Positions 988-10,765 of a stretch of 10,765 bases of DNA are shown here, piece after piece. The translations under genes and the position numbers were made by a program. Source of the stretch: Mycobacterium sp. (GTDB lineage: Bacteria; Actinomycetota; Actinomycetes; Mycobacteriales; Mycobacteriaceae). Below the pieces are notes generated by a model. It saw only the letters and a list, made by a program, of their open reading frames with translations, did no database searches and was not told where the DNA came from. How positions within the stretch are numbered: the first letter of the stretch is position 1; every line of letters begins with the position of its first letter. Where the stretch lies: contig JAOPWF010000835.1 of NCBI GenBank assembly GCA_025965815.1, forward strand, positions 1-10,765, written 5' to 3'.

Positions 988-1059
988 GCCTCCTTAGCTC
1001 AGTGGTAGAGCACTCGCCTTGTAAGCGAGCGGTCGTCAGTTCAATCCTGACAGGAGGCT
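988..1059 (+). tRNA. tRNA-Thr (TGT anticodon)
   Basis: A complete 72-base cloverleaf can be drawn by eye. The acceptor stem is GCCTCCT (988-994) with AGGAGGC (1052-1058) and discriminator T at 1059. The D-arm contains AGCTCAGTGGTAGAGC. The anticodon stem is CTCGC/GCGAG with loop CTTGTAA and anticodon TGT at 1020-1022. The T-arm is GTCAG-TTCAATC-CTGAC. CCA is not encoded. The 3' part from 1014 is duplicated downstream at 4230-4277 and partly at 4872-4900, so this gene appears to be the integration target of the accessory DNA that follows. Confidence 0.95.
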
Positions 1060-1061
1060 CA
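1014..1061 (+). repeat. Putative attachment-site core inside tRNA-Thr (copy 1)
   Basis: The 48 bp from the anticodon stem to just past the tRNA 3' end recur in direct orientation at 4230-4277 with 44 identities. Tyrosine integrases commonly use the anticodon-to-3'-end part of a tRNA gene and leave one intact gene plus a displaced 3' fragment. That is the layout seen here. The site assignment is inferred. Confidence 0.72.
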
Positions 1062-1218
1062 GTTCAAAAAGTTCTTCTAGCTACGAAAACACCCTGGGCG
1101 GCGCCGAATCTGTGTTCGACTGGCCGGTTCGGTTCCACGACGGTGTCACAGACTCCCGCGTGAGCGTAGCCTCGATCTGCCCTTGGTTTGGCCTGCCGCG
1201 GAAAAGAGAAGGTCCGAC

Positions 1219-2820
1219 ATGATTGGCGTTCGGCAAGCAACGATCGACCTGTTCCGCGCGTACGGGCTGACCACCTGGTTCGGCAACCCCGGCTCATCGG
1301 AGCTGACCCTGCTGGAGGATTTTCCTGAAGATTTCCGCTATGTGCTGGGACTCCAGGAGATGGTGCCGGTAGGGATGGCCGACGCCTATGCCCAGATCAC
1401 CGGACGACCCGCTGTGGTCAACGTTCACACCGCTCCAGGCATGGGCAACTCCCAGGGTGCGCTCTACAACGCATTCGTCAACAAGACCCCGCTCATCGTC
1501 ACCGCCGGAAACCAGCGCCGCTTCATGCAAAACCAGTACTGCCTGCTGACCAACATCGAGCCCACGACGGTGCCCAAGCCGTTCGTGAAGTGGGCGGCTG
1601 AACCGGCAATCGCGAGCGAGGCTCCCGCTGTGCTCGCCCACGCCATCCACCTGGCCACAAGCCCACCGATGGGCCCGGTGTTCGTCTCGCTGCCGATGGA
1701 CGACATGCAGGCCGAACTCGACGACACCCAGGCCGCGGACATCGCCGCGGTGCGCGACCGCAAAGTCACCCAAGCGGTCGGCTTTCCCACAGATCTCGCC
1801 GAGCAGATCTGTACGCGCATCGAAGCCGCGACATCACCGGCGCTGATTGTGGGTGGCGACGTCGAACGCTACGGGGCGTGGGACGCGGCGATCAGGTTGG
1901 CCGAAAGCACCCAGTCTGTCGTGTGGACGGCCCCGCTGACCGGATGGAGCGGATTCCCTGAGAATCACCCGTTGTACCAGGGCATGCTGCCGCCCGGTGC
2001 CGGATGGATCTCCCAAGCGCTAACCGGACGCGATCTCGTACTGGTGATCGGGGCTCCGGTGTTCCGGTACTACCCGCGAGTCCCCGGACCCTATCTGCCC
2101 GCAGGCACAAGCCTTATTCACATCACCAACGATCCCGACGAAGCCGCCCGCGCCCCGGTCGGGGACGCGATCATCGCCGACCTGCGCAGCGCCGCCGAGG
2201 CCCTACTCGCTGCGGCCAAACCAACCCAGCGGCCCGCTCCACCGCCGCGCGCCCCGATCCCCGACATCGAGCACGCGGAAACACCGCTCAAACCCGAAAC
2301 GCTATAGGCGGCCGTCGGGCATGCCGCACCCCCAGACACGCTGTGGGTCAGCGAGGCCGGCAGCAACGAGTTCCCCATCACTAACGGTATCCGGCCCGGC
2401 AACCCGTTCTCGCACTTATCAGCCGCCGGTGGCGGACTGGGCTTTGGGCTACCTGCTGCCGTTGGCGCTCAACTTGCCGCGCCGGATCGCCCCGTGGTGG
2501 CGTTGATGGGCGACGGTTCCATGCATTACGCGATCACCGCGCTGTGGACAGCGGCGCATTACCGGATCCCGGTGACCATCGTGGTCGCATCCAACGCCGA
2601 ATACGGGGTCCTCAAAGAGTTCGGCAAGTGGGAGAAAACGCCGGGGGTTCCCGGCCTGGACCTGCCCGGGCTGAATGTCGTAGGCACCGCCGCCAGCTAC
2701 GGCGTGGACGCCCACGAAGCACACACCACCGACGAGGTCATCAAGCTCGTGGAATCGGGCATCGCCGATCGCGGGCGACCTACCCTTGTCAACGCGCGCA
2801 CCATCCCAGTTGATACCTAA
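1219..2820 (+). pseudogene. mdlC: Benzoylformate decarboxylase, interrupted by one in-frame TAG
   Basis: The frame encodes a thiamine-diphosphate (ThDP) enzyme like benzoylformate decarboxylase, which turns benzoylformate into benzaldehyde and CO2 in the mandelate pathway. It is one continuous frame of 533 codons (Pseudomonas putida enzyme: 528) broken only by TAG at 2305-2307, codon 363. Visible residues are Ser26 and Glu28 in GNPGSSE, Glu47, His70 in VNVHTAPGMGN, and the ThDP/Mg motif GDGS (431-434) ending at Asn459. The second active-site His (281 in P. putida, FRYH) is Tyr285 here (FRYY). Start: ATG at 1219 with GAGAAGG seven bases upstream; TTG at 1183 is less likely. The stop removes the cofactor-binding third domain, so the 362-residue product should be inactive. 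A downstream GTG (2494) could yield only a fragment. Possible causes are recent mutation, sequencing error or readthrough. No mandelate-pathway partner is adjacent. Confidence 0.86.
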
Positions 2821-3215: not shown

Positions 3216-3602
3216 TCAGGAAGGGTGGCGGGCTGTCGCCTCGCCACGCTCCTGTGCCCTGTGGATGCCAAGAATGAGGGCCAGGGCATCTTCGATTTCG
3301 CCCATCGTGCCGGACCTGATGGTGCCGAGTCGTTCCACTAGGCGGGTGCGGGCGACTGCGCGGATGCTGCGGCAGACGGCGACGCTATCAGTATCCACAC
3401 CTTCAGCGGGCGAGACGGGTGGCCGCAGTGGGGTGCGCGAGCGGGAGCTTGACACCGGCACGACCACGACGAGTTCGTCGTCGATGCCGGTGAGTAGCTC
3501 GTCGACGGACACGACTACGGCGGGGCGATGTTTGCCGGGCTCACCGGCGCGAGCCGCGCCAAGGCTGACCAGCCAGAGGTCTCCCCGTCGCGGCTCAGGC
3601 AA
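3216..3602 (-). CDS. MazF-type endoribonuclease toxin
   Basis: A 128-residue protein of the usual MazF size. It begins [15 protein letters not shown], where RRGDLWLV is the conserved first strand of the family, followed by [14 protein letters not shown], the conserved second segment with the RP pair. MazF toxins cut single-stranded RNA at short specific sequences and halt translation unless bound by the antitoxin. I chose a TTG start at 3602: it places RRGDLW near the N-terminus, as expected, and overlaps the antitoxin stop by 8 bp, the normal layout for a coupled pair. A longer frame up to 3764 only adds low-complexity sequence that shadows the antitoxin gene. The pair lies inside the putative tRNA-Thr element and could stabilise it. 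RNA target sequence cannot be predicted. Confidence 0.85.
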
Positions 3603-3831
3603 GGCCGTCGCCTGCGGTGTCCTGCCAATCGCGGTCCTCCTCGCGGACGGCGTGGGCAGTCGCTTCGGCCTGGGTGGCGTCGCGTTCGGCGCGGAAGATC
3701 GCCTGGCGCTCGGTCTGGGAGGCCAGTTCGGTGAGGAGAGCGGAGATCGAGATCCCTCGTTCACGGGCTTGGGCGGCTAGGCGGTCACGAGTCTGGATTG
3801 AAACCCTGATCGTCGTCGTGGAGGTAGACAT
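3595..3831 (-). CDS. MazE-type ribbon-helix-helix antitoxin
   Basis: A 78-residue protein. Residues 7-38 ([20 protein letters not shown], then [11 protein letters not shown]) have the strand-helix-helix pattern of ribbon-helix-helix DNA-binding proteins. The acidic, Ala-rich C-terminal half would wrap the toxin. It starts at the ATG at 3831 with no ribosome site; TAGACT (minus strand, at 3838-3843) lies six bases upstream, so a leaderless mRNA starting at the ATG is likely, which is common in mycobacteria. Its 3' end overlaps the toxin start, so the two are co-transcribed and probably co-translated. It should neutralise the toxin and repress the shared promoter through the palindromes at 3824-3855. 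Confidence 0.83.
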
Positions 3832-4229: not shown

Positions 4230-4277
4230 TCGCCTTGTAAGCGAGCGGTCATCGGTTCAATCCCGATAGGAGGCTCA
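4230..4277 (+). repeat. Displaced tRNA-Thr 3' end (copy 2), putative att site
   Basis: These 48 bp match 1014-1061 at 44 positions and run from the anticodon stem through the acceptor 3' strand. The 5' half of a tRNA is absent, so this is not a functional gene. All four differences lie in the T-stem: GTCAG/CTGAC in the intact gene is ATCGG/CCGAT here. They pair with each other, so stem pairing is kept. This suggests the copy once belonged to a working tRNA-Thr, either the original host gene end or that of another lineage carried on the element. Confidence 0.78.
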
Positions 4278-4829: not shown

Positions 4830-4871
4830 ACTGTCCTGACGGCGTGGGCATCAAATCCACTCCACCCGTTA

Positions 4872-4900
4872 GTCGTCAGTTCAATCCCGACAGGGGGCTC
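4872..4900 (+). repeat. Second displaced tRNA-Thr 3' end (copy 3)
   Basis: These 29 bp match 1032-1060 of the intact tRNA-Thr at 27 positions and cover the T-arm and the 3' acceptor strand. One change breaks a T-stem pair (GTCAG with CCGAC), and the other turns AGGAGGC into AGGGGGC. The fragment is shorter and more decayed than copy 2, as expected for an older displaced end. It ends 6 bp before the stop codon of the mmpL gene. Confidence 0.68.
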
Positions 4901-4906
4901 CAGGCA

Positions 4907-7183
4907 CTACTCGCCGCCCGTTGCCGAAGCCATCGGTCGCTGACCCTCCGCCGCCGGCTCTGATGGAGGGTCGGGGTCGCTGATCCCTAACCACTCGCGC
5001 AGCCGCGCAAGCGGTTTCGGTGCCCACCAGTTGAACCGGCCCATCACATGCATGAAAGCCGGAACCAACAGCATGCGCACCAGCGTCGCGTCGGCCAGCA
5101 CCGCCAGCGTCAGTCCAACTCCGAACATCCGCATGAACGACACCTGGGCGGCGATCAACGCGGCGAACGAAATCGACATGATCAGTGGCGCGGCCGTGAT
5201 CACCCGGCCGGTATGCGCCAGCCCCAGCGCCACGCTCTCGTCGTTGTCGGCCGGCGTCCGCCCAGACGCTAGCCAGTACTCCCGGATGCGCGACACCAGG
5301 AATACCTCGTAGTCCATCGACAACCCGAACGCGATGCAGAACAGCAGCACCGGGATGTTGACCACCAGTGTGCCGGTGGCCGTGGTACCCAGCCCGCCGA
5401 GGTGGCCATTCTGGAAGATCCACACCATTGCGCCGAAAGCGGCGGTCAACGATAAGACGTTGAGCACCAGCGCCTTCAGCGGCAATACCACGCTGCCGGT
5501 CAGCAAGAACAACAACACGAACGTGATTGCGCCAATGACCGCGAGCACGATGGGCAGCCGGGAGGTGACGGCGTTGGCAGTGTCACGGTTTACCTGCGCA
5601 GTCCCGGTCATGAGGACACGCTGGCCGCCCGGACCCGGAACAGCGTGCAGCCGGTCGAGCTGCGTCTTGGAGGTCTGCGAGAACAGCGGCGCGCTGCTCG
5701 AAACGGTGAGAAACGCGCTGCCTTTCGTTATCGCGGCTGCAGCCGAGGGCGGTCCGACAAGCGCACCAGCGGTGAATGTGCCACTCGGCGCGGATACTGA
5801 CAACACGTCGGGAACCCTCGACAGCTGGGAGGCGTACCGAGCCAGCTCCGCCGGAGTGACGCCGCTGGTGTCCCGGATCACCAGTGTCACGTTCGTCGCC
5901 AAGTCGTCGGCGAAATCGGCGCGAAGCTGATCCCCAACTTGACGAGCCGAGCTCGATGTCGGTAACACGCGATCGTCGGGCACGCCCCACTTGACACCGA
6001 TGAACGGCATGCCGAGCGCGACCAGCAGCGCAATGATCGCGAGCCCGATCGGGACGGCCCGGCGCATCGCGAACTTGGCTAAGCGGTACCAGAACGTCTG
6101 CTCCACCGGGCGTTGGACGGGCTCCGGCCTCCGCAGCAGGCGCCTCATAAGGCGGTGAAGATCGAAGGAGTCCAACCGTGGGCCGAGCAGCGCGATGGCC
6201 GCCGGCGCCACCACGATCGCGGCGACCGCCGCGAAGGCAACCACCGCGATGCCGGCATAAGCGAACGACTTCAGAAAGTACATCGGGAACAACACCATGG
6301 CGGACATCGACAGCGCGACCGTCATCGCGGAGAACAGCACGGTCCGGCCGGCGGTGGCCATCGTGCGCATCAGCGCCTCGTCCCGCCCGGCACCTTCGGC
6401 AAGCTCGTCCCGGTACCGGCTGAGGATGAGCAGCGTGTAGTCGATCGCCAACGCCAGCCCCATGGCGACGGACAGATTCAGCGCGAAGATGGAGACGTCG
6501 GTCGCGAAGGTGAGCGCCCGCAGCACCGCCATTGAACCGAAGATTGCGAAGCCGCCGACCGCCAACGGCAGCGCCGCCGCCACCAACCCGCCGAACACCC
6601 AGACCAGCACCAGGAAGCTCAGCGGAATCGCGATCGCTTCCATGACCTTCAGATCTTTTTCGCTTTGGACTTTGATCTGGGTATAGGTCATCGCCTCACC
6701 GCCGACGCGCACGGTCACACCGTCACGGTCGTGCACCAGTGCGTTGCTCAGCGTCTCGGCATGCTTGCGCGCGCCGCTCTCACCGCCAGTGATGCCGGCG
6801 ATGATCACACCGATCTTGCCGTCCTTGCTGATCAGCAACCTCGACGCCGACGGCGGCGTCGTCCATGCCGACGTCACCTGTGCCACATACGGGGAGCTAT
6901 GAAGCTGACGCACAATGTCGGTGCCGACCCCCCGGGCGGCGCTGCTCTGTACACCGTCGTTGGAGCTGACGGTGATCAGCATCTGCATGTCACCCTGATG
7001 AAACGTGTTTACCAGCAGGTTCGTCGCGTGCGCAGACTCAGCGGTTGGATCCTGGAAGCCAGCCGCGGAGAGGCTGTTCGCCACCGGTATGCCGAACACT
7101 GCCGCACCCACCATCACAAGCAGCGCGATCGCGATGATCCGCCGCGGCGCATGAATGGCCAGCCGAGCAATCCCCTCTAACAC
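4907..7183 (-). CDS. MmpL/RND-family lipid transporter
   Basis: A 758-residue inner-membrane protein of the MmpL branch of RND transporters, which export lipids across the mycobacterial membrane using the proton gradient. The layout is typical: TM1 (about 16-35), a periplasmic loop, a group of five TM segments (about 183-340), then a second half of the same design with TMs near 380-400 and 545-715. Asp-Tyr pairs of the proton relay occur in both halves: AIDYTLLILSRYRDE (Asp248-Tyr249) and SMDYEVFLVSRIREY (Asp624-Tyr625). It lacks the long C-terminal domain of MmpL3, and I cannot name a numbered orthologue. Start: GTG at 7183, four bases after GGAGG and 13 bp from the preceding stop; a GTG at 7216 is possible. 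As the last gene of the operon it probably exports the product of the upstream type III PKS. Confidence 0.9.
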   Translation of the reverse strand: MLEGIARLAIHAPRRIIAIALLVMVGAAVFGIPVANSLSAAGFQDPTAESAHATNLLVNTFHQGDMQMLITVSSNDGVQSSAARGVGTDIVRQLHSSPYVAQVTSAWTTPPSASRLLISKDGKIGVIIAGITGGESGARKHAETLSNALVHDRDGVTVRVGGEAMTYTQIKVQSEKDLKVMEAIAIPLSFLVLVWVFGGLVAAALPLAVGGFAIFGSMAVLRALTFATDVSIFALNLSVAMGLALAIDYTLLILSRYRDELAEGAGRDEALMRTMATAGRTVLFSAMTVALSMSAMVLFPMYFLKSFAYAGIAVVAFAAVAAIVVAPAAIALLGPRLDSFDLHRLMRRLLRRPEPVQRPVEQTFWYRLAKFAMRRAVPIGLAIIALLVALGMPFIGVKWGVPDDRVLPTSSSARQVGDQLRADFADDLATNVTLVIRDTSGVTPAELARYASQLSRVPDVLSVSAPSGTFTAGALVGPPSAAAAITKGSAFLTVSSSAPLFSQTSKTQLDRLHAVPGPGGQRVLMTGTAQVNRDTANAVTSRLPIVLAVIGAITFVLLFLLTGSVVLPLKALVLNVLSLTAAFGAMVWIFQNGHLGGLGTTATGTLVVNIPVLLFCIAFGLSMDYEVFLVSRIREYWLASGRTPADNDESVALGLAHTGRVITAAPLIMSISFAALIAAQVSFMRMFGVGLTLAVLADATLVRMLLVPAFMHVMGRFNWWAPKPLARLREWLGISDPDPPSEPAAEGQRPMASATGGE

Positions 7184-7196
7184 GTCTCCTCCGACG

Positions 7197-8315
7197 TCAA
7201 AAGCGAAGAACTGCACCCTCGATGGTGAGCCCCGGCCCGAACGTCAACAGGACCCCGTACTCTCCCGGGCGGGGCTTATCGACTCGCAGGATGTTCTCGA
7301 GCACGAGCAGCACCGTGGCTGATGCGCAGTTTCCGGCGTTCGCGAGCACGTCCCAGCTCGCGCGCAATTGGGCAGGCTTCAAGGCCAACTGTTTTCCCAG
7401 CGTCCGCACGATCTTCGGACCACCCGGATGAATTCCCCAGTGCATGATGTCACGGGGGGCCAGTCCCACCGGTTCGAGCAGCTTGACCAGGAAGCCGTCG
7501 ATGTTCTCCTGCAGCACCGCCGGCACACCGGCGGCCAGCGTCATCCAGAACGACTGGTTGCCGATGTTCAAACTCATCATCGTGTGCTTGTCATAGAGCT
7601 GCTCGGTGTGGGTGGCCAGAAACTGGATCCCATCACCGTCGGGCGCGGCTCCCAGCAGCATCGACACGCTGGCGTCGCCGAAAAGCGCCTGCGTGATCAA
7701 GGATTCCGTCGGATCCTCACTCGGCATCGGGGTATCGCGGATGTGGGCGGAACTGAGCTCCGTGCAGTTGCAGATCACCCGCTCGTCGGGTCGGGCGGCC
7801 AGGCTGTCCATTGCGACCTTGATCACGTTGAGCGCCGCATAGCAGCCCATGTGGCCGATGAAGGTGCGTCGCAGATCCGAGCGCAGCCCAAGTTCTTTCG
7901 CTAATAAAAGGTCGGGGCCCGGATTGGCGTAGCCGGTCGAGCACGCCATCACGAAGCTGCCGACGCTGCCGGTGTTGAACCCGCCGATCGCCTGCTTGAT
8001 CGAACGCGACGCTACGTCGATAACCGCGTCGGCGTGTGCGGCCATCCGGTCACCGGTGAGCATGGCACAGAGTTCCACTCGCCGATCTGGGTCCCAGATG
8101 ATGTAGCGCTTCTTCACCCCCGTCGACTCAACGATCCGCTTGGCAAACGGAACCGACGAGGACATGTGCTGGAAGAACCGCTCCCAGCTCTCCTGCTGAG
8201 TGACCTCGAATGGCGGATACGCCGACGAAATGCCCAGCAGCGTTGGCCGCACGGGCACCGCGCTCGATGTCAGCTGTCCTGGGGAGGAGGCGTCAATCGT
8301 GCCTGCTCGATACAT
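7197..8315 (-). CDS. Type III polyketide synthase (chalcone/stilbene synthase family)
   Basis: A 372-residue homodimeric-type ketosynthase, the usual family length. The Cys-His-Asn triad is visible: Cys158 in FIGHMGCYAALNVIK, His296 in WGIHPGGPKIV, and Asn329 in ANAGNCASATVLLVLE. The GPG loop near the C-terminus is present (TFGPG, 358-362). These enzymes extend an acyl starter with malonyl-CoA in one active site and cyclise the chain, giving pyrones, resorcinols or similar rings. The substrate is not readable, but the adjacent FAAL and ACP suggest a long-chain acyl starter delivered on ACP, as opposed to free acyl-CoA. The ATG at 8315 has GGAGGG six bases upstream. It begins 21 bp after the FAAL stop and precedes mmpL by 13 bp, so it is in the same operon. 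Confidence 0.92.
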   Translation of the reverse strand: MYRAGTIDASSPGQLTSSAVPVRPTLLGISSAYPPFEVTQQESWERFFQHMSSSVPFAKRIVESTGVKKRYIIWDPDRRVELCAMLTGDRMAAHADAVIDVASRSIKQAIGGFNTGSVGSFVMACSTGYANPGPDLLLAKELGLRSDLRRTFIGHMGCYAALNVIKVAMDSLAARPDERVICNCTELSSAHIRDTPMPSEDPTESLITQALFGDASVSMLLGAAPDGDGIQFLATHTEQLYDKHTMMSLNIGNQSFWMTLAAGVPAVLQENIDGFLVKLLEPVGLAPRDIMHWGIHPGGPKIVRTLGKQLALKPAQLRASWDVLANAGNCASATVLLVLENILRVDKPRPGEYGVLLTFGPGLTIEGAVLRF

Positions 8316-8336
8316 GGCTATCCCTCCGGTATTCCG

Positions 8337-10109
8337 CTACCCGACCGACGGCGTCTTCGCTGTATGCCGGGCGAATTTCGCGCGCGCGTGGAAGAGTTCT
8401 CCGTTGGCCGCGGCTACCAATAACCTTGCGGCGGAGAGCTTCTTCGGCGGGGACAGCGTCCCCGCCAGCCACTGCGCGCGCGCCTCGCGTCGTCGGAGCT
8501 TTCCGCTCGTCGTGCGGGGCAACGTACCCGGTGCCAGCAACTCCACCTGCGCCGGCAGTATGCGAGTGCGCTCCTCGACTCGCGACGCCACGCCGTCCGC
8601 CAGCGTCGGGGCGGCGTGCGAGGTGCTCTCGACGAGCATCGCCAGCGCCTCGTCATCCTCGCCCGCAGGGACGAATCCAACGGCGACTGCGCATCCGCTC
8701 CGAACGCCGGGTGGTTCGCTCAGCGCTGCCTCAAAATCCTGGGGCGCGTATTTGGCGCCACGCACGATCACGATCTCCTTGTGCCGTCCGCACAAGAAAA
8801 GCTCGCCGTCCTGTTCGAACCCGAGATCCCCCGACTCCAGCCAACCGTCGTGCAGCACCTGATCGGTCAGATCGGTCCGGCCGAAGTAGCCCGCCATGAC
8901 GCTGGGCCCACGAACGAAAACGTGACCGGCGTGCCCAGGAGGCAGCGCCACGCCCTCGGCATCGCGGATCTCGACCTCCACTCCGGCCAGCGGACGGCCC
9001 ACACTCACCAGCTCTTTGCCACCCGGTTCGACCACGCCGTCGGAAGCCAATTTGTCGGCGTCCACTCCAAGGGTGCGGAAGGAGGTGCCAGCCGGCTTGA
9101 ACGTCACGGCCAACGAGGCCTCCGCCATCCCATAGACGGGTGTCAGCGACGACGCGCGAAAGCCCCAGCGCCCGAATCGCTCATTGAATCGCCGCTGCAC
9201 CTCGGCGCTGACCGCCTCCGCTCCATTGAGAGACAGGCTCCAAGAGGACAGGTCTACGCCCTCGAGTTCGTCGTCGCGAATGCGTTTGAGGCACAAACCG
9301 AAGGCGAAGTTGGGCGCCGCCGAGAGCGTGCCCCGGTGTCGTGAGATGGCGCTCAGCAACGCAGCCGGTATCGCGACGAACAACTCAGGCGGAATCAGGA
9401 CGAGCGGGCCCGGAATGTAGAACGCTTCAAGCAGATTCCCAATCAATCCCATGTCGTGGTAGAGCGGCAGCCACGTGACCCCGACCGGGTTCGGCGTTCC
9501 CTCGTCTGTGATGTAGCGGTCAATCGCGGCGAGGTTCGACAGCAGATTCGCATGGGTCAGGGCCACCGGCTTGGGATCGTGCGTCGTGCCCGAGGAGAAT
9601 TGGATCAATGCCACGTCGTGGGCGGCGACTTCTATCTCGCCCGAGTTCGTGCCGGCCAGGCTGGACGCGGTCACACAGCCGAGGCGAGGAGCTGCGATCT
9701 GAACGGCGATCCCGAGGAACCGGCGGATGCGTTCGTCGGTGACGACTAGGACCGCATCCACCGCCGCCAGCATGGCCGCCGTCCTCCGGTGATACTCGTC
9801 GAGTCTGCCGAGCCGGACGGGCGGATACAGCGGAACCGGGATGGCGCCCGCGCACAGCACGTCGAAGAAGCACTCCACGAACTCCGGAGAGGTTGGCAGC
9901 ACGAGCGCGACGCGATCGCCCCTCTTCACCCCGGGAGCCATCAGATCCGCGGCGATCCACAGCGCGTGCTCGCGTACGCGAGCCATCGGCACGTCCTGGT
10001 CTTGCTCTTTCCGGTTCACGAAGAACAGGCTCACGCCACTGTGTGCGGCTGCGGCGAGCATTTCATTGAGCGTCTCGTGCTTCGGTGGGACCGCCGGAGC
10101 GCCTCTCAC
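8337..10109 (-). CDS. Fatty acyl-AMP ligase (FAAL, FadD-like)
   Basis: A 590-residue ANL-superfamily adenylate-forming enzyme. Visible motifs: phosphate loop FSSGTTHDPKPVALTHAN (171-188), WLPLYHDMGLIG (213-224), YGMAE (326-330), SGDLG with Asp428, and the catalytic Lys537 in LPRTTSGKLRRRE. Between about 335 and 370 there is extra sequence before LVSVGRPLAG, where FAALs carry the insertion that favours acyl transfer to ACP over CoA. It therefore probably makes acyl-AMP from a fatty acid and passes it to the neighbouring ACP. Start: GTG at 10109 with AGGAGG just upstream, overlapping the ACP stop as GTGA. A longer open frame to 10454 only shadows the ACP gene. The FAAL versus acyl-CoA ligase choice is inferred from pattern and context. 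Confidence 0.9.
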   Translation of the reverse strand: MRGAPAVPPKHETLNEMLAAAAHSGVSLFFVNRKEQDQDVPMARVREHALWIAADLMAPGVKRGDRVALVLPTSPEFVECFFDVLCAGAIPVPLYPPVRLGRLDEYHRRTAAMLAAVDAVLVVTDERIRRFLGIAVQIAAPRLGCVTASSLAGTNSGEIEVAAHDVALIQFSSGTTHDPKPVALTHANLLSNLAAIDRYITDEGTPNPVGVTWLPLYHDMGLIGNLLEAFYIPGPLVLIPPELFVAIPAALLSAISRHRGTLSAAPNFAFGLCLKRIRDDELEGVDLSSWSLSLNGAEAVSAEVQRRFNERFGRWGFRASSLTPVYGMAEASLAVTFKPAGTSFRTLGVDADKLASDGVVEPGGKELVSVGRPLAGVEVEIRDAEGVALPPGHAGHVFVRGPSVMAGYFGRTDLTDQVLHDGWLESGDLGFEQDGELFLCGRHKEIVIVRGAKYAPQDFEAALSEPPGVRSGCAVAVGFVPAGEDDEALAMLVESTSHAAPTLADGVASRVEERTRILPAQVELLAPGTLPRTTSGKLRRREARAQWLAGTLSPPKKLSAARLLVAAANGELFHARAKFARHTAKTPSVG

Positions 10110-10372
10110 GGTCCCTCCTGAATGCTGCGGACCACTAAAGCTGCGAGATCCCCAATCGTCCGGAGATCGTCTGCGTCCTCCTCTTGTAGAACGACGTCGT
10201 AGCGCGCCTCGATCTTGAAGACGAGCGACAAGACCTTGAGCGAATCCAGCCCCCCACCGAGGAGGGTCGAATCGGCCGTGAGATCGACAGCTCCCACTTC
10301 GGCCCGGATGAGATCGATGAGGTCTTGAGTGACGGCCGCAAGAGTTGCCGAGCGACCTGTTGGCAATGTCAT
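10106..10372 (-). CDS. Stand-alone acyl carrier protein
   Basis: An 88-residue acidic carrier protein. The phosphopantetheine attachment site is Ser44 in LLGGGLDSLKVLSLVFKIE, followed by the typical helix III region DADDLRTIGDLAALV. After modification it would carry an acyl chain as a thioester. Its stop overlaps the FAAL start by 4 bp (GTGA), strongly suggesting a working pair: FAAL loads the ACP, which hands the chain to the type III PKS. I chose the ATG at 10372 because GGGGG lies eight bases upstream and the family pattern begins there; a TTG at 10435 would add 21 residues without ACP character. Confidence 0.9.
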   Translation of the reverse strand: MTLPTGRSATLAAVTQDLIDLIRAEVGAVDLTADSTLLGGGLDSLKVLSLVFKIEARYDVVLQEEDADDLRTIGDLAALVVRSIQEGP

Positions 10373-10519: not shown

Positions 10520-10765
10520 CTAGGCGGTCGGACTCGGGAAAAGTCCTTTCCTTTTCAACCAATCGAGCACAGTCATGTTGAACTGGTCGTGCTGCTCGAA
10601 ATAGCCGAGATGCCCCCCACCTTCGAGGAGCTGGTACTCCGCACCATCGATATGGTCGGCGAGATACTTGCCATGCTCGATAGGCACATCCTCGTCCAAG
10701 GTCCCGGACATGATCAGCGTTGGAACACCCTTAATGCGTGGCAGAACATCATGAATGCGCGTGTT
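10520..10765 (-). CDS. Alpha/beta hydrolase, C-terminal part
   Basis: The minus strand is open from the right edge to the TAG at 10520, giving the last 81 residues of a longer protein; its start is outside the window. PTLIMSGTLDEDVPIEHGK carries the strand and loop with the acid of the catalytic triad (Asp in GTLDEDVP). LLEGGGHLGYFE carries the catalytic His. The Ser nucleophile is not visible. The substrate is unknown: it could be a thioesterase or esterase releasing or trimming a lipid of the pathway, or be unrelated. It lies 147 bp upstream of the ACP on the same strand, so membership of the same operon is possible but less certain than for the tightly packed genes. Confidence 0.85.
   Translation of the reverse strand, partial: NTRIHDVLPRIKGVPTLIMSGTLDEDVPIEHGKYLADHIDGAEYQLLEGGGHLGYFEQHDQFNMTVLDWLKRKGLFPSPTA

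Follow-up and report, generated by a model that had tools for sequence, protein, structure and literature searches.

Coupling of fatty acid activation by a fatty acyl-AMP ligase (FAAL) to a type III polyketide synthase (PKS) has reportedly been described in Myxococcus xanthus by Hayashi et al. 2011 (ChemBioChem), where the two enzymes are said to lead to alkylresorcylic acid. The legend to a published M. xanthus cluster lists methyltransferase and monooxygenase genes (PMC5006271). In the cylindrocyclophane pathway of cyanobacteria, a FAAL and an acyl carrier protein (ACP) act first and a type III PKS makes the resorcinol, with type I PKS modules standing between the ACP and the type III PKS (PMC11837247), and an acyl-ACP starter has been proposed for HidC in the cyanobacterial hierridin pathway (PMC8086630). 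Usual descriptions have type III PKSs fed by coenzyme A (CoA) esters and mycobacterial FAALs feeding type I PKSs (PMC11837247); type III PKSs described from mycobacteria include Pks18, Pks11 and MMAR_2470/2474 (PMC5916927). Here we analyse a 10,765-base stretch of DNA (the window), which is the whole of contig C76 in a 5.66 Mb genome (877 contigs, 81% complete) with Mycobacterium as its nearest named kin, and in which genes for a stand-alone ACP, a FAAL, a type III PKS and an MmpL transporter follow one another.

The window locus, probably one small lipid-biosynthesis operon, resembles each of these systems in part. Like the M. xanthus pathway, it would couple fatty acid activation by a FAAL to a type III PKS, and the mycobacterial FAAL groups with Myxococcota FAALs, whereas its PKS falls outside the Myxococcota PKS group that we call clade B, beside which no MmpL was scored in the DNA compared (all absences of neighbouring genes refer to the flanking DNA compared). 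The cyanobacterial pathways have other tailoring steps, and the passages on them in the two accounts name no MmpL (PMC11837247, PMC8086630). Pks18, Pks11 and MMAR_2470/2474 have the same fold and triad and are among the nearest solved structures (1tee, 7d41), but the window PKS is only 25–26% identical to 1tee and 7d41, and type III PKSs at other places had no FAAL neighbour (control below). Mycobacterial loci of a further kind carry a homologous ACP and FAAL, often with an MmpL, but a FabH-like KASIII takes the position of the type III PKS, and many of these loci add a thiamine pyrophosphate (TPP) enzyme, methyltransferases, a cytochrome P450 or an aminotransferase. In the open-access literature that was searched (subscription journals lay mostly outside its scope), we recognised no description of the operon or of these KASIII loci. 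A sequence-only reading of this DNA had been unable to match the gene set to a described product, and no product was found here either, but the idea of a FAAL, an ACP and a type III PKS working together has precedents. The enzyme logic is thus already known. A conserved FAAL, free ACP, type III PKS and MmpL would make a small system suited to three-protein work on acyl-ACP.

When GTDB species genomes were scanned with a PKS alignment, 21 loci were returned, eight from Mycobacterium or Mycobacteriaceae records (PKS identity 77–85%) and 13 from other organisms (43–48%). Across the nine mycobacterial loci compared (the window and L006–L013), the order ACP-FAAL-PKS and the exact 4-bp overlap of ACP and FAAL are kept in 9/9, the FAAL-PKS gap ranges from 2 to 32 bp, and an MmpL gene directly follows the PKS at a gap of 5–93 bp in 7/8 loci where this is visible (the contig of L006 stops inside the PKS gene); in L007, MmpL comes 6.3 kb downstream. 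In the window, all four reading frames are open, the successive spacings are -4, 21 and 13 bp, and the ACP stop and the FAAL GTG start share the letters GTGA. The gene calls and spacing of the sequence-only reading agree with these coordinates to the base, and the outcome that it had set against itself, a gene order not conserved beyond this strain, fails in view of the nine loci. That the four genes are adjacent without a common function is highly improbable, given that order and overlap persist in 9/9 despite divergence from the window to 77–85% identity in the PKS, 73–82% in the FAAL and 55–70% in the ACP; a chance cluster can be ruled out on the same grounds. The operon is nonetheless rare, with the PKS present at E 1e-60 or better in 8/396 genus genomes (window genome counted) and in 4/148 genomes of a first genus sample. 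The end of an alpha/beta hydrolase gene, 147 bp upstream of the ACP gene, was rejected as an operon member; its 81 residues have no homologue in the DNA compared of L006–L013. Scans for sigma-70 promoters and terminators gave 0 against 1.1 and 5 against 3.8, respectively, nothing clearly above chance.

The best, and on balance probable, explanation is a route from FAAL to ACP to type III PKS and on to export by MmpL, with the operon assembled as a mosaic. Judging by its family and its CoA-rejecting residues, the FAAL would turn a free fatty acid into acyl-AMP and load the phosphopantetheine of the adjoining ACP. The PKS would move the acyl chain from the ACP onto Cys158, extend it with malonyl units (malonyl-CoA) and cyclise it to an alkylpyrone, alkylresorcinol or alkylresorcylic acid, and the MmpL3-like pump, as its linkage and fold suggest, would move this lipid to the outer envelope. 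We infer, as did the sequence-only reading, that the PKS may take its starter from the ACP; this has become likelier because related PKSs from organisms other than Mycobacterium are likewise accompanied by FAAL and ACP genes, in a different arrangement, and because the FAAL retains residues reported to reject CoA. Precedents for acyl-ACP use (PMC6274091) come from ArsB/ArsC, through the ACP domain of ArsA, and from GCS, with hexanoyl-ACP. Nothing was found from which to tell whether the ring would be that of a pyrone or of a resorcinol.

Table 1. Features of the window, and groups of loci from other DNA that were compared with it.
Feature	Location	Strand	Details
ACP, stand-alone acyl carrier protein	10106..10372	(-)	88 aa, Ser44 in GLDS; Pfam PP-binding
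FAAL, fatty acyl-AMP ligase	8337..10109	(-)	590 aa, GTG start; AMP-binding; best PDB matches are FAALs
Type III PKS	7197..8315	(-)	372 aa, Cys158-His296-Asn329; Chal_sti_synt N and C domains (Pfam)
MmpL transporter, MmpL3-like kind	4907..7183	(-)	758 aa, GTG start; MMPL; matches MmpL3 structures
Alpha/beta hydrolase gene end	10520-10765		
tRNA-Thr(TGT)	988-1060		
Partial copy of tRNA-Thr 3' end	4230-4277		
tRNA-Thr 3' end remnant	4854-4901	(+)	65% over 48 nt, better in 3' part
Benzoylformate-decarboxylase-like gene	1183-2820		in-frame TAG at 2305-2307
PemK/MazF-type toxin gene	3216-3831	(-)	
Relatives with FAAL at the PKS	L014; L015; L017, L021, L022; L019, L020		Myxococcota; Nannocystis; Microvirga; uncultured, respectively
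KASIII-ACP-FAAL loci of mycobacteria	L139, L144, L149-L169, L170-L183		often with MmpL
F1a-KASIII-aminotransferase modules	L194-L202		two modules in L194

The ACP matches the Pfam PP-binding domain at E 2.7e-8 (longer frame scored) and has the DSL serine, with GLDS present in 9/9 loci. For the FAAL, the nearest PDB entry is 3PBK, the E. coli FAAL (EcFAAL; E 8.8e-84); in this alignment, which included no CoA ligase, the FAAL-specific helix is ungapped and the insertion region is present with small gaps. Residues W213, M220 and F268 align with W224, M231 and F279 of EcFAAL, with an apparent one-residue offset in numbering, and the latter are described as bulky residues that block CoA (PMC8460268). 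Tryptophan and phenylalanine are kept at these positions in 9/9 loci and methionine in 8/9, L008 having phenylalanine instead. The curated NCBIfam level was missed by the FAAL (best NF006624, 404 bits against a cut-off of 600), which suggests that it is a divergent member of the family. Its last ~40 residues form a basic C-terminal tail (PPKK...HARA) that is largely kept in 9/9 loci and lies past the aligned end of the E. coli enzyme; this tail could be a docking element.

The PKS has both Chal_sti_synt domains and a Cys-His-Asn triad that is invariant in 23/23 aligned sequences (window and 22 relatives). Its predicted model, with a mean local confidence score (pLDDT) of 88.9, matches type III PKSs, the first being M. 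marinum 7d41 at 26% identity. Met258, likewise invariant in 23/23, lies by alignment at what we take to be the Phe265 position of chalcone synthase. The basic residues presumed to form the CoA site of chalcone synthase were too variable to serve as an indicator. Methionine at the Phe265 position has been reported for the HidC clade (PMC8086630). Acyl-ACP use was nevertheless not read from this residue, as the same methionine occurs in L062, L065 and L066, all without a FAAL, and it is a clade marker only.

The MmpL protein contains MMPL domains (E 1.8e-80; frame from 7216 scored), and its residues 16–743 match MmpL3 structures at 318 bits with both transmembrane Asp-Tyr pairs kept, which places it among MmpL3-like transporters; it did not reach the level of an MmpL3 orthologue in the NCBIfam equivalog (376 bits against 1400). 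In L105 (= L079 site), L106 (= L082 site) and L080, an MmpL gene of this kind is immediately followed by a PKS that belongs to another type III family of the genus. The MmpLs of L105 and L106 score 1022 and 1031 bits, and L105 also has a gene for an ICMT-type methyltransferase. The occurrence of another type III PKS family beside MmpL supports the MmpL link of the operon. Solved MmpL4/MmpL5 entries in the PDB (8zkp, 9rgb, 9u4t and others) also include the carrier protein AcpM, as shared entry codes indicate, and this may be a precedent for contact between an ACP and an MmpL.

Linkage of the three enzymes extends beyond the genus. Among the 13 non-mycobacterial relatives, picked by PKS sequence alone, a FAAL frame above 240 bits overlaps the PKS or lies at most ~0.6 kb downstream in 7/13 (Table 1). 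An ACP candidate stands just upstream of the PKS in six of these seven (all but L015), so that the order is ACP-PKS-FAAL as opposed to ACP-FAAL-PKS in Mycobacterium. When four of the candidates were compared with Pfam, L014 and L021 passed, L019 scored 20.7 against a cut-off of 20.8 and L020 had no match. As a control, we took 36 other type III PKS places from the window genome and 20 relatives, of which 29 had DNA compared and 7 gave no locus; a FAAL was beside 0/29 (flanks ~0.7–1.5 kb, some less). On a 78-row PKS tree, with FAAL labels assigned by hand from the flank comparison, the label requires 6 changes, compared with 22.7 on average after shuffling (0/500 as low), a figure that near-copies favour. 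This tree was built without duplicate loci and rows shorter than 250 aa (L023 included), while L020 and L029, identical to each other, were both kept. Clade B, the second group of FAAL-linked type III PKSs, is FAAL-linked in 9/10 tree rows and may include the published M. xanthus pathway. The Streptomyces relatives L023–L026 have methyltransferases (L024, L025) and an MMPL gene (L023, L025), and L026 has genes for a class III aminotransferase, an amine oxidase, an acyl-CoA dehydrogenase, a FAAL-like protein and an ACP; these four loci probably represent a different pathway.

The operon is a mosaic, in that its PKS and its FAAL have different nearest kin. In a tree of 25 PKS rows, the mycobacterial PKSs grouped with clade A, which includes Myxococcota, Microvirga and actinobacteria (support 100/100), and grouping with clade B was rejected; in a tree of 28 FAAL rows, the mycobacterial FAALs grouped with clade B (100/99) and grouping with clade A was rejected. 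The approximately unbiased (AU) tests gave p 1.4e-15 for the PKS and p 0.00056 for the FAAL, and since the groups were named once an exploratory tree had been seen, which tells against a strict reading, these values are guides only (the AU-test tree lost L106 to a score threshold). Thus the mycobacterial PKS stands outside the Myxococcota clade B set and the FAAL falls with the FAALs of Myxococcota clade B type III PKS loci. On the simplest reading, two FAAL-linked type III PKS systems would have swapped partners, or the parts would have come together from different sources. As to direction, we infer that a clade A type III PKS joined an ACP-FAAL-MmpL chassis.

The FAAL family of this chassis is more widespread in the genus than the PKS. 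It was found at E 1e-110 or better in 43/392 genus genomes at 45 places (3 candidates per genome scored), and 34 of the 45 places were examined. KASIII stands near the FAAL in 26 of them (26 genomes), the operon's kind of type III PKS in 8 and neither in 0, so that the KASIII version beside FAAL occurs in at least 26/392 genus genomes; most flanks were ~1–1.5 kb, and the more distant KASIII of the L007 genome is therefore uncounted. The window locus itself has a type III PKS, not a KASIII, beside its ACP and FAAL. Within 14 larger regions, seven (L173, L175–L179, L183) have, in this order, a TPP enzyme, F1a (a 220–230 aa protein without a Pfam match), KASIII, ACP, FAAL, MmpL, an O-methyltransferase and a P450, with an extra methyltransferase in five of the seven. 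An aminotransferase and a flavin monooxygenase lie between FAAL and MmpL in L171, L172 and L182, and no MmpL was seen within the stretch compared in L170, L174 and L180. The 4-bp ACP-FAAL overlap is also present in the KASIII loci L139, L173 and L181. In the FAAL tree, 35 mycobacterial rows (L140 was too short for inclusion) form one clade (100), and the nine PKS-operon FAALs are nested within this clade, grouped with those of two KASIII loci, of which one belongs to the window genome. In the MmpL tree, 26 rows from PKS and KASIII loci fall in one group (99), some rows being one locus twice (e.g., L163/L176). On contig C91 of the window genome (L140), ACP and FAAL lie downstream of a gene for a PapA-like acyltransferase, before the contig ends. 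A different type III PKS (28% identical) follows directly after the P450 of one KASIII locus (L173:14560-15606).

Several observations weigh against the route from FAAL through ACP and PKS to MmpL. KASIII genes are present in 7/8 PKS-operon genomes, in 1–3 copies at 64–100% identity, and the 7/7 genomes concerned (G000, G051, G058, G300, G392, G409, G416) have nine regions with F1a, KASIII and an aminotransferase, mostly together with a TPP enzyme. None of these nine regions, three of which are cut by contig ends, has a match to ACP, FAAL or MmpL. A repeat of the FAAL search on the eight PKS genomes, scoring every candidate, found no close FAAL besides that of the operon in G051, G058, G300 and G392 (in G058 the next best reached 40%; the other three had none at E 1e-90), so the operon's ACP and FAAL may serve KASIII also or instead. 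The MmpL tree is untidy as well, since the main group does not take in the MmpLs of L007, L171, L181 and L182. Outside Mycobacterium, five of the 13 clade A loci (L016, L018 and L023–L025) had no FAAL above 65 bits in the flanking DNA compared (only 5.9 kb for L016), and the FAAL-like gene of L026 (245 bits) lies kilobases upstream of the PKS. In addition, type III PKSs that accept acyl-ACP, namely ArsB/ArsC and GCS, can take acyl-CoA too (PMC6274091). The "dedicated" route of the sequence-only reading has become doubtful, with KASIII beside a homologous ACP-FAAL in 26/34 places (one in the window genome) and KASIII genes in most PKS genomes.

It is possible, although rather unlikely in our view, that the PKS uses general acyl-CoA and that ACP, FAAL and MmpL are an inherited KASIII chassis whose ACP-bound chain goes to KASIII modules elsewhere in the genome, the PKS being a mere neighbour in the operon. 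This explanation was framed after the checks, and the presence of KASIII in 7/8 PKS genomes raised it and lowered the FAAL-to-MmpL route; the KASIII modules of the four genomes above, lacking an ACP and FAAL of their own, also speak for it, as does contig C854 of the window genome (L139), where a KASIII-ACP-FAAL locus has a FAAL 85% identical to that of the operon. It is harder to reconcile with the related non-mycobacterial PKSs that also adjoin ACP and FAAL, with the lack of any KASIII in the DNA compared of 7/8 named loci, and with G139 (93% complete), which has the PKS operon but no KASIII of that family at E 1e-20, so that FAAL and ACP would there work without such a partner as far as 93% completeness tells. 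That the PKS simply took the place of KASIII was discarded as an explanation, since 7/8 PKS genomes still have KASIII. We consider it less likely still that PKS and KASIII act successively on one ACP-bound chain, so that the pathway is split, the operon encodes one half of it and MmpL exports a more elaborate lipid. The F1a-KASIII-aminotransferase modules elsewhere in 7/7 PKS genomes would be consistent with this, and L007 (positions 4048-19505) carries on one strand genes for an O-methyltransferase, ACP, FAAL, type III PKS, TPP enzyme, F1a, KASIII, aminotransferase, P450 and MmpL. However, PKS and KASIII occur together in only 1/9 loci, G139 has no such KASIII, and next to the remaining type III PKS operons the DNA compared contained none of the tailoring genes, save for a methyltransferase homologue ~4 kb away in L006.

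A broader reading, which we put forward tentatively, is that portable modules (the ACP-FAAL-MmpL chassis, the type III PKS, and a TPP enzyme-F1a-KASIII-aminotransferase unit) have been recombined, every arrangement yielding its own exported lipid, and that the ACP docks in turn with the FAAL, the exchangeable thiolase-fold condensing enzyme and perhaps the MmpL. In the arrangements seen, the chassis carries the PKS, a KASIII or, in L007, both, or the KASIII module lies apart from the operon, in which case the ACP would be shared. The KASIII version of the locus may be the larger question. If true, the swap of KASIII and type III PKS beside a homologous ACP-FAAL would show how novelty in envelope lipids can arise by a change of condensing enzyme.

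The window also preserves possible traces of how the operon arrived. Besides a tRNA-Thr, it contains two partial copies of the tRNA 3' end, and only 5 bp separate the mmpL stop codon from the copy nearer the operon. This remnant is possibly an old attachment site, and the copies resemble stacked sites. L008 has an intact tRNA-Thr immediately next to the mmpL stop, without the 3.8 kb between them in the window, and the same outer gene follows; no tRNA was found in the DNA compared of the other seven named loci. From the partial copies and the layout of L008, we therefore propose that the operon may have entered the lineage at a tRNA-Thr site, and that ~3.8 kb may have been added later in the window species. 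Within the window, the toxin gene belongs to a toxin-antitoxin module, and a small frame adjoining it matches NikA below the cut-off. The in-frame TAG that interrupts the decarboxylase-like gene follows its N-terminal and middle TPP domains and precedes the C-terminal one.

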